Positions 24,334 through 27,999 of a stretch of DNA of 64,000 nt are shown here, one piece after another. The notes under the pieces are model-generated. The model was not told the DNA's origin. It did not search any database and saw only the letters and a list, made by a program, of their open reading frames with translations. Positions within the stretch are counted from its first letter, which is position 1. Every line of letters starts with the position of its first letter. Source of the stretch: an uncultured Flavobacteriales bacterium (GTDB lineage Bacteria > Bacteroidota > Bacteroidia > Flavobacteriales_D > Sanyastnellaceae); NCBI GenBank assembly GCA_938084585.1, contig CALKFF010000011.1, positions 1 through 64,000 on the forward strand. Reading direction: 5' to 3'. The translations under genes and the position numbers were made by a program.

Positions 24334-25806
24334 GTGAGCGTGGAAAGAATCTTGGCCAAACGCATGGCCCGCAGCAACCGCCACCTGAGCGCCAGGCCGG
24401 TGGTCCGCATTGCCACAGCCGGGGTGGCGTTGGGGGTGGCGCTCATGATTTTGGCTTCGGCCATTGTGCAAGGATTCCAGCATGAGGTCAAGCAACTGGT
24501 GGTGGGGTTCGACAGCCACATCCAAGTGGCGCCGAGCGACCCTTCGGCCGACGGCCTGGTGTGGTCACCTGGCATGCTCGACAGCCTTCGCCAACTTCCT
24601 GGGGTGGCCCAAGTCGCCTTGCGCCACGAGCGGGCGGGCATCCTTGAATCTCCGCACGCTCTGCAAGGTGTGATCGTCCGAGGGGTCGACAGCACCTCGG
24701 TGCTGGACCGCATCGAAGGCGGATTGCTTCGTGGCCGCACGCCCAAGGAGACCGCCCAGGGTCCACGAGATGTGTTGATTGGGGAGCCTTTGGCACGCGC
24801 TTTCGACGTGGACACGGGCGACAAGGTCACGTTGTACCTGATCTTGGGCCAGGAAGACATTCGCCCCCGCCCCATGACGGTGGCTGGCGTCTACCAAACT
24901 GGCCTTCAGGAATTCGACCAACGGCAAGTGTGGATTCCCGCCGCCCTGATGCAGGACGCCGCGGCGCGCGGCGCCGAAGCCCAAATCGTGTTCTCCGACG
25001 ACGACGCTGGACAACCATCCCGTGCCGTTGGGCAAGTCTTTGGTCGGGACCCGCGGGGGCTGGGCTGGCGAGGGCGTTGGGCCGAATCCAGCCATGGACG
25101 TCGCTCCCTTCCGCTTCAAGACGTGTCTCGCCAGGACACCCACGTTTGGATTGCAGGAACAGGAGCGCTGGCCGACACGGCCCGGCTTTGGTGGGCCGAG
25201 GGCCAATGGCAAACGTCCGTGTCCTCAGGGTCTCACCGAAAGGTGGCCGACGGGTACGACGTGTGGACGACCTCGCTTGCAGACGTTCCTGAAGTGCAGG
25301 AGTCCTTGTTTCGGACCATCCCCTACGACTGGTCGGCCACCCGCGTGGACCAGCAGCACCCCGAGATGTTCAGCTGGCTGCGTATGCTGGACCTCAACGT
25401 GGAGGTCATCGTGGGCCTCATGGTCCTCATTTCCATCGTCAACATGACCAGCGCCTTGCTCATCATCATGTTGGAGCGGCGATCGCAGGTGGGCGTTTGG
25501 AAAGCGCTGGGCATGACAGACCAAGCCGTGGTCAGGACGTTCATGTGGCACGCCACACGCATCCTCGGGCAGGGGTTTGCAGTGGGCAACGTCCTCGCCC
25601 TGACCCTCGTGGCCATTCAATCGACATGGCAATGCGTGCCCCTCGACCCCGAGGCCTATTACGTGGACGCCGTCCCCGTCTTGCTCGATGCACCACGCAT
25701 CGCAGGCATGGAATTGGTGGCCTTTGGGCTGTGCGTGGTGGCCATGCTCCTGCCCGCGCTCTGGAGCGCTCGCATCCGCCCCTCACGAACTTTGCGCATG
25801 TCATGA
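24334..25806 (+). CDS. ABC transporter permease, FtsX/LolC-like
   Basis: 490 aa; four-TM FtsX pattern; SIVNMTSALLIIMLERRSQVGVWKALGM. Confidence 0.85.
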   Translation: MSVERILAKRMARSNRHLSARPVVRIATAGVALGVALMILASAIVQGFQHEVKQLVVGFDSHIQVAPSDPSADGLVWSPGMLDSLRQLPGVAQVALRHERAGILESPHALQGVIVRGVDSTSVLDRIEGGLLRGRTPKETAQGPRDVLIGEPLARAFDVDTGDKVTLYLILGQEDIRPRPMTVAGVYQTGLQEFDQRQVWIPAALMQDAAARGAEAQIVFSDDDAGQPSRAVGQVFGRDPRGLGWRGRWAESSHGRRSLPLQDVSRQDTHVWIAGTGALADTARLWWAEGQWQTSVSSGSHRKVADGYDVWTTSLADVPEVQESLFRTIPYDWSATRVDQQHPEMFSWLRMLDLNVEVIVGLMVLISIVNMTSALLIIMLERRSQVGVWKALGMTDQAVVRTFMWHATRILGQGFAVGNVLALTLVAIQSTWQCVPLDPEAYYVDAVPVLLDAPRIAGMELVAFGLCVVAMLLPALWSARIRPSRTLRMS

Positions 25807-27470
25807 GCCAGCCCCCCACTTGGAGTTTCTCCGCCCAAATTGAACACTTTGACGTCGACGCTGCGTGGCATTTCCTCGCCATCCCTGCCGAGCACGTGGA
25901 CGCCGTGCGCGAGGCTGGCGACGGACGCTACGTCATCACCGTGAACGACGCCGTGACCTGGCATTGCGGCCTGTTGCCGACGGGCGATGGCCGGTGGTTC
26001 GTGGCGGTGTCCAAGGCCAAGATCAAGGCCGCCCAGACCACATTCGGCGGCTGGGTGCACGTGGATTTGGCCGTGGACACGAGCAAATACGGCATGCCGA
26101 TCCCAGACGATTTGCAAGACATGCTCGACGACGACCCTGAATTTTTGAAACGATTTGACGCCATGCTTCCAGGAAAACGACGCGGAATGATTCACCACAT
26201 CGCCAGCGCCAAGACCGATGCCACCGTCGCCAAGCGCATCCTCAAACTCATGCAAGAATTGGGGTTGGTGTGGGCGCTTTTGGGTTGGTGCCTCTCTGCC
26301 CAAGCCCAAACCTTGGGCCACGCCCGGACCGCCGACTACACCCCCCTGCTGGAGGACCGCGCCGTCGCTGTGGTGGCCAACCACACCAGCATGGTCGGCG
26401 GACCTGAAGGCACCCACCTTGTGGACACCTTGCTGTCGCTCGGGGTGGAGGTGAAACATGTCTTTGCGCCTGAGCACGGCTTTCGGGGCGACGCAGCCAA
26501 CGGCGCACACATCGAAGACGGGACAGACTCCACCACAGGCCTCGACATTTTCAGCCTGCATGGGTCCAACCGCAAGCCGCAACCGTCCCAGCTGAACGGC
26601 ATCGACGTGGTCGTCTTCGACATCCAAGATGTGGGGGCGCGGTTTTACACATACGTGAGCACACTCATGCTCGTCATGGAAGCCTGCGCAGAAGCCGAGG
26701 TCGACGTGCTGGTGTTGGACCGCCCCAACCCGCACGGCCACCACATGGCAGGCCCCATGCTGGACCCGGACTTCAAGTCGTTTGTGGGCTGGATCCCCAC
26801 GCCCATGGTCCATGGCTTGACCTTGGGGGAGTTGGCCAACATGGCGGTGGCAGAATCTTGGTTCCCGACACCAGCCGGCTGGAAGCCGACGGTGGTGGCT
26901 TGTCAAGGGTGGGAGCATGGCATGGACTACATACTCCCCATTCCGCCCAGCCCCAACTTGCCCACGGCGGCGTCCATCGACCTCTACCCCAGCTTGTGCC
27001 TGTTTGAACCCACCGACGTCAGCGTGGGACGGGGCACGTCGACGCCCTTCGAGTTGCTTGGGCACCCCAATTGTCCGTGGGGCTCGTACCGGTTCACGCC
27101 GGTGCCGACCCCAGGCGCCGCCCCCCACCCGAAACACGAGAACACCCCCTGCTCGGGACAGCGTTTGACCGGAATGTCCCAGTCGTGGCGCTCCCGGTCT
27201 AAGAACGGCTTGCCCGGATTCACGCTTGCGCCCCTGTGGACGTGGGCCGACATGTGGCGCACCATGCACCAACGGTCGCTGGACGGGTTCATCGTGTCGC
27301 CCTCGTTCTTCGACAAGTTGGCGGGCACGGACGAGGTGAGGTTGGCCTTGGAAAACCAGCGCCCTTTGGACCCACTGACCGAAGCGTGGGCCGTGGACCA
27401 GGCGGCGTTCTTCAAGCGGGCAGAACCCCACCTGCTCTACCCTTGGAATGCACCAAAACCTGGGCGTTGA
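25803..27470 (+). CDS. Predicted fusion: YdeI/OmdA-like (DUF1905) domain plus DUF1343 (NamZ-like exo-beta-N-acetylmuramidase)
   Basis: 555-aa uninterrupted frame; N-part SFSAQIEHFDVDAAWHFLAIPAEHV...KRILKL; then signal-peptide-like LGLVWALLGWCLSAQAQ; then VVANHTSMVGG...FAPEHGFRGDA...VVFDIQDVGARFYTYVSTL...LDRPNP. Confidence 0.75.
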   Translation: MSQPPTWSFSAQIEHFDVDAAWHFLAIPAEHVDAVREAGDGRYVITVNDAVTWHCGLLPTGDGRWFVAVSKAKIKAAQTTFGGWVHVDLAVDTSKYGMPIPDDLQDMLDDDPEFLKRFDAMLPGKRRGMIHHIASAKTDATVAKRILKLMQELGLVWALLGWCLSAQAQTLGHARTADYTPLLEDRAVAVVANHTSMVGGPEGTHLVDTLLSLGVEVKHVFAPEHGFRGDAANGAHIEDGTDSTTGLDIFSLHGSNRKPQPSQLNGIDVVVFDIQDVGARFYTYVSTLMLVMEACAEAEVDVLVLDRPNPHGHHMAGPMLDPDFKSFVGWIPTPMVHGLTLGELANMAVAESWFPTPAGWKPTVVACQGWEHGMDYILPIPPSPNLPTAASIDLYPSLCLFEPTDVSVGRGTSTPFELLGHPNCPWGSYRFTPVPTPGAAPHPKHENTPCSGQRLTGMSQSWRSRSKNGLPGFTLAPLWTWADMWRTMHQRSLDGFIVSPSFFDKLAGTDEVRLALENQRPLDPLTEAWAVDQAAFFKRAEPHLLYPWNAPKPGR

Positions 27471-27495
27471 GCGGGATTTGATGGTATACTTGCAC

Positions 27496-27999
27496 ATGCG
27501 TTTGTCCTTCACCCACATGTCCTTCTTGGCAGCCACCATGTCTGTGCTTGCGCTGGGCTGCACGCGTTACGACCCTTACGAGGGGGAGACGTTCGATTGC
27601 GAATGCGGAAACCTCAACTGGGGCGGACGTGAGTTGAACCTTCGCATGGCGGAAGTGGAAGCCTTGGACTCGACCCAATTCCGTTACCACATCGTGGCGG
27701 ACCTCCGCCAAGAGGAGGCCATCGTGGCCCGTGAGGAGCCCAGGGATGTCGTGCTGATGCTGACCACCGAATTGGGCGGCACCAGCGCGTTCCTGTCGTT
27801 CCTCGCCAACGACGAGAATTTCACGATCCAACAAGTCAACTCCCCGAATTCCACGACCCCTTGGACCATGGATGGGGCGAGCGTGAATGTGATGGTCGGT
27901 GCCGACATGCACACCATGACCATCAACGAGCTGAGTGCGCGTCAGGGCAACACCGTCCTGCCTGTCACGGGCACCCTCACCTTCGACCTCGTCGACTGA
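27496..27999 (+). CDS. Putative lipoprotein
   Basis: MRLSFTHMSFLAATMSVLALGCTRYD lipobox; about 167 aa. Confidence 0.65.
   Translation: MRLSFTHMSFLAATMSVLALGCTRYDPYEGETFDCECGNLNWGGRELNLRMAEVEALDSTQFRYHIVADLRQEEAIVAREEPRDVVLMLTTELGGTSAFLSFLANDENFTIQQVNSPNSTTPWTMDGASVNVMVGADMHTMTINELSARQGNTVLPVTGTLTFDLVD

Follow-up and report, generated by a model that had tools for sequence, protein, structure and literature searches.

An in-frame DUF1905-OmdA/NamZ fusion with a predicted internal signal peptide, conserved in a genus of uncultured Flavobacteriales

Introduction

Does an open reading frame that runs without interruption from a DUF1905-OmdA protein into a NamZ-type cell wall glycosidase encode one protein or two, and how would the enzyme be exported? 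The question is raised by a frame in a 64,000-nucleotide stretch of DNA from an uncultured Flavobacteriales bacterium (the window), which is part of a 1.94-Mb MAG that is 78% complete. The frame and its two halves are the following.

25803-27470, plus strand: fused ORF, ATG at 25803 to stop at 27468-27470, 555 codons, 555 amino acids, unbroken
25803-26270, plus strand: DUF1905-OmdA half, complete (Pfam; end set by the stops of standalone copies)
26307-27467, plus strand: predicted mature NamZ domain, exo-beta-N-acetylmuramidase family (Pfam NamZ_N/NamZ_C; PDB 4jja)

Results

Domain content of the fused frame

All four Pfam domains called on the fused protein exceed their curated cut-offs, in the order DUF1905 (residues 9-89; 43.7 bits, cut-off 24), OmdA (98-153; 55.4 bits, cut-off 25.6), NamZ_N (188-389; 246 bits, profile positions 1-202 of 203), and NamZ_C (394-546; 79 bits, positions 2-152 of 152). 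The sequence-only reading of this DNA had proposed an in-frame fusion of a DUF1905-type protein with a DUF1343 (NamZ-like) glycosidase, both halves being full length with no stop between them. The single 555-codon frame and the Pfam coverage bear this out.

The N-terminal half shares with the DUF1905-OmdA ("YdeI/OmpD-associated") proteins both PF08922 and PF13376, above cut-off and in that order. Standalone members from the same family of bacteria have the same length as this half (the one in G121 is 54% identical) and end after OmdA, whereas the window protein goes on without a stop into a signal core and NamZ. The unfused copies of two relatives (copy A, see below) end in KRIAALMNELKLT (G001) and KRIAALMDELNMT (G008) and that of G121 in KRIMKLMEFLGV, each followed by a stop; at the same place the window fusion reads KRILKLMQELGL and continues directly into VWALLGWCLSAQAQ. 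Since the standalone copies stop at the residue matching 155/156, the N-terminal half is complete and the signal core starts at its last residues. A PDB sequence search with this half returned no significant match to a solved structure. The full-length structure model had a pLDDT of 69.5, with the N-terminal half mostly under 50, and that half modelled alone reached 51.5; these models are too weak for a fold search.

In the C-terminal half, both NamZ domains (PF07075 and PF20732, formerly DUF1343) are complete, with approximately 45 to 57% identity to NamZ of the family's other genera. Its closest solved relative is PDB 4jja (E = 5e-93, near full length), and invariant columns common to 13 relatives include A222-P-E-H-G-F-R-G229 and D306-R-P-N-P310. 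A standard NamZ carries a signal peptide or lipoprotein signal at its N terminus, while the signal of the window protein lies about 150 residues into the DUF1905-OmdA frame. Going by its family, the NamZ half should remove MurNAc from the ends of wall glycans. MurQ acts at a downstream step, on MurNAc-6-phosphate, and its presence in the same genome (304 bits, cut-off 302) fits the use of released MurNAc. The G001 fusion, and no other, carries an added low-complexity tail, SLKPNLKADPESDPESNPKPDPAQD, at the NamZ C terminus.

The same junction in other species of the genus

The junction was searched for in relatives, as the sequence-only reading had suggested, and the whole fusion with the same junction was found in five further species of the genus: G004 (92% identity to the window fusion), G008 (71%), and G001, G009, and G010 (68% each). 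A stop between OmdA and NamZ is absent from all six species with an intact fusion, and two deletion variants, G002 and G005, also retain the junction; in G006 only the start of the fusion is visible, a contig end cutting off the rest. Recurrence in five species and two deletion variants makes the junction neither a chance event nor an artifact, and by comparison of these sequences the fused arrangement is real and conserved. The near relatives of the window genome are labelled Crocinitomicaceae or Flavobacteriales MAGs. Among 395 other, evenly sampled Bacteroidota the fusion was found in none although 378 gave a NamZ match, and homologue searches found it in no other genus of the family; the fusion therefore looks confined to one genus.

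Sequence features at the junction

26229-26306, plus strand: predicted internal signal sequence, comprising the basic part AKRILK (OmdA C-terminal helix) and the core LGLVWALLGWCLS (sequence, alignment, and hydrophobicity)

By alignment and hydrophobicity, a signal core with an AxA/Q motif (the slash marks the predicted cut) sits directly before NamZ, internal to the frame. A signal peptidase I site, AQA/Q, is predicted from the sequence after residue 168. No other 15-mer of the protein is as hydrophobic as the junction segment, either in the six intact fusions or in the two deletion variants. Across species the core ends in AQAQ, AHAQ, TQAQ, THAQ, or AHGQ, and in G001 and G008 in an LSGC lipobox. 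Such swapping between signal peptidase I and II sites would be expected if the segment works as a signal peptide, but not if it links two domains; the junction is thus predicted to evolve as a signal peptide, and the earlier impression of a secretion signal some 150 residues into the ORF gains from both the hydrophobic core and the AxA/Q or lipobox endings. The low-confidence structure model places one continuous helix (residues 133-165) across the junction.

Gene neighbourhood

24334-25806, plus strand: MacB/FtsX-type permease gene (Pfam MacB_PCD and FtsX), directly upstream of the fusion
25803-25806, plus strand: ATGA, in which the permease stop overlaps the start codon of DUF1905
27496-27999, plus strand: small lipoprotein-like gene just 3' of the fusion, matching no Pfam family

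By synteny, the permease is the upstream neighbour in all genus members whose contig reaches that far, and the order of fusion and lipoprotein-like gene is kept in relatives. The ATGA overlap recurs in G004 and G002 and probably couples translation of DUF1905 to that of the permease. Two genomes hold an extra DUF1905-OmdA copy with its own stop, copy A, between the permease and the fusion (G001, C19:65233-65709; G008, C7:4528-5007), and in both the TGA of copy A and the start codon of the fused copy overlap, again as ATGA. Copy A is 47% identical to the N-terminal half of the window protein, the fused copies 76 to 78%.

Damage to and loss of the N-terminal half

A tree built from flanking genes places G003, G010, and G005 together (100% support), adjoining G009. 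The fusion is whole in G010 and G009, and G003 lacks DUF1905 and has a new N terminus on NamZ. G005 has lost most of DUF1905-OmdA, including Met121, through an in-frame deletion between two GCCAAGCGC repeats, and has kept the DUF1905 frame, ARRVLKLMNELGL (RRVLK), and the signal core; the contig (C97) ends a few codons upstream of the deletion, so that the start of this gene is out of view. G002, near the window's lineage, has a deletion that by direct count measures 316 bp, one base more than a multiple of three. Reading from the DUF1905 start now gives MSHEPTWNF followed by a stop, and this frame cannot reach NamZ. NamZ, otherwise intact (87% identity), is open in its own frame, in which Met121 is the first ATG after the new stop, about 15 bases on. 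As read from these MAG contigs (for G002, one contig of one MAG), NamZ outlives DUF1905-OmdA through a frame-shifting deletion, an in-frame deletion, and a loss.

Selection on both halves and synonymous constraint within the first

26073-26252, plus strand: stretch of low synonymous divergence, codons 91-150 (species-pair comparison)

Purifying selection acts on both halves. Three species pairs gave dN/dS values of 0.08, 0.08, and 0.12 for the N-terminal half, and for NamZ the ratio was 0.11 to 0.14 where computable. In each pair dN was lower in the N-terminal half than in NamZ; the N-terminal half is therefore a maintained protein and not a passenger.

Counted among identical amino acids only, synonymous differences in codons 91-150 versus the rest of the gene were 2/52 versus 93/427 (22%) for G000-G004, 15/54 versus 183/351 (52%) for G001-G008, and 12/47 versus 188/340 (55%) for G009-G010. 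Because codons 91-150 were picked after a first profile, the P values for that single window, and the 1e-8 obtained by combining them, err on the optimistic side. A shuffled-flag permutation scanning every window gave 0 of 1,000 results as extreme, with the minimum at codon 91; the constraint persists when any one pair is dropped, and seven neighbour genes gave P values of 0.03 to 0.94. Among degenerate codons whose amino acid is invariant in six species, 37% are fully invariant in codons 91-120, 22% in 121-150, and 0 to 14% elsewhere, i.e., the constraint is mostly concentrated just upstream of Met121. The matching stretch of the unfused copy A shows no depression (24 of 48 synonymous differences, G001-G008). 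Depressed synonymous divergence in the fused pairs and its absence from copy A point to an embedded expression signal, which codons 91-150 probably contain; the constraint could instead come from another embedded element, e.g., a promoter or an RNA structure. A search for an internal Bacteroidota -7 box (TANNTTTG) gave one-mismatch matches only, none of them common to all species.

An overlapping gene was also considered for codons 85-155. Stops interrupt the two other sense frames in each of the six species. None interrupts the codon-aligned antisense frame in any of them, and we discount this frame because GC-rich codon usage alone would keep it open.

Candidate internal starts

26163-26165, plus strand: ATG of Met121, best candidate start of a NamZ precursor (structure and GC minimum; G002)
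26187-26189, plus strand: ATG of Met129, unconserved in the alignment
26250-26252, plus strand: ATG of Met150, conserved, yet also present in unfused DUF1905 copies

A separate exported NamZ nested in the frame had been suggested to start at 26187 or 26250. Both in-frame ATGs exist, but neither is the best candidate. Other species have Gln, Arg, Ala, or Val in place of Met129. With a start at Met150 the n-region would be acidic (MQELG, MTDLG, MNELG) and devoid of basic residues; its RNA structure is ordinary in the window species, it has A at -6 and -12, and the residue is also Met in standalone DUF1905 copies, where nothing starts.

A third in-frame ATG that the earlier reading had missed, at 26163 (Met121), most likely fits best as an internal NamZ start. 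Flavobacterium lacks Shine-Dalgarno sites, and low structure together with upstream A residues favours initiation there (PMC6847099). In G000 and G004, the 45-nt window that holds Met121 is the least structured of the gene (-0.2 kcal/mol; percentiles 0.00 and 0.01), and the 36-nt GC minimum falls there too. The percentile is 0.05 in G001 and 0.14 in G009 and rises to 0.24 in G008, where the structure dip is weaker, and 0.43 in G010, which has no such dip, so the low-structure trend fades; G009 and G010 also have no GC3 dip, and position -3 of Met121 is G, as opposed to the favoured A. Met121 is also present in unfused copies, and its conservation alone therefore proves nothing.

Discussion

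How NamZ may be produced

From the sequence evidence, NamZ is probably either cut free from the joint frame or started separately within it. The reading we favour, to which we give about an even chance, combines the two: a polyprotein split by signal peptidase, with NamZ also made from an internal start, most likely 26163. The open frame argues for the polyprotein route; the synonymous constraint, the RNA profile, and G002 argue for the internal start. Translation begun at 25803, and tied by the ATGA to the permease stop, would yield DUF1905-OmdA joined to NamZ, and the basic C-terminal OmdA helix would supply the n-region for an internal Sec signal. NamZ would be exported and then released by signal peptidase I (in G001 and G008 by signal peptidase II, with lipidation), and DUF1905-OmdA would stay on the cytosolic side after cleavage. 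A NamZ precursor would also be begun internally at ATG 26163 with a predicted 48-residue extended signal peptide, a length that counts against a start there. Export, cleavage, internal initiation, and the release of MurNAc from wall fragments are all steps that we infer. Somewhat short of an even chance, and more tentatively, we propose that the arrangement is a genus-wide in-frame nested gene, i.e., an exported NamZ with its own start inside the frame of a cytosol-type DUF1905-OmdA protein, whose end doubles as the signal peptide n-region. Because this n-region would be built from the end of DUF1905-OmdA, any stop that the upstream protein regained would kill the exported NamZ.

It is possible, though we think unlikely, that there is a single start and that all NamZ derives from 25803 as an N-in/C-out precursor with a cleaved internal signal. 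OmdA, upstream of Met150, holds the basic residues that export would require, and G005, lacking Met121, keeps the DUF1905 frame with RRVLK and the signal core; the ATGA overlap likewise ties 25803 to the permease. Such a scheme nevertheless leaves the synonymous constraint on codons 91-150 unpredicted, and in G002 the equivalent of the 25803 start cannot reach NamZ.

An uncleaved, membrane-anchored fusion, in which a cytosolic DUF1905-OmdA would be permanently tethered to a periplasmic NamZ, had also been suggested and appears improbable. It would agree with the single frame conserved in six species, with purifying selection on both halves, and with the modelled helix through the junction. However, the AxA/Q sites and lipoboxes predict cleavage, NamZ was retained in all three cases in which the N-terminal half was damaged or lost, and a standalone NamZ is the rule in Bacteroidota. 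We hold it very improbable that the fusion is a tolerated accident, a stop lost in the genus ancestor with an N-terminal half that no longer works: repeated loss of that half (G002, G005, and G003) and restriction to one genus would suit this, but its low dN/dS, with dN below that of NamZ, would not. The chance that an assembly or sequencing error merged two genes, as an incomplete source MAG might lead one to suspect, is practically nil, as independent MAGs of five other species have the same junction.

Comparison with genes that have internal starts

Bacterial genes with in-frame internal starts, the second product of which resides in another compartment, form a general class. The locus likewise has one frame, a candidate internal start, and differing predicted locations. 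It departs from that class in that the product of the predicted internal start would be a whole enzyme, with a signal built out of the tail of the preceding domain. If the favoured reading is true, this is a clean case of one bacterial frame serving two compartments, and automatic annotation would give a 555-aa fusion with the signal peptide hidden. The fusion offers the DUF1905-OmdA family a testable partner in peptidoglycan MurNAc recycling, and the repeated loss of the N-terminal half in relatives is a natural experiment on fused genes separating again.

Other observations

A plasmid tblastn search gave no match. An antisense ORF of 634 codons (25659-27563, minus strand) spans nearly all of the fusion and is probably a by-product of GC-rich codon usage. 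In G328 (C6) and G222 (C23), NamZ matches lie within open frames of more than 700 codons, possibly other NamZ fusions or merely long open frames. In Riemerella anatipestifer, a transposon mutant of a DUF1343 (NamZ family) gene was no longer naturally transformable (PMC8459023), and a second role of NamZ relatives in this process is possible in Flavobacteriales.
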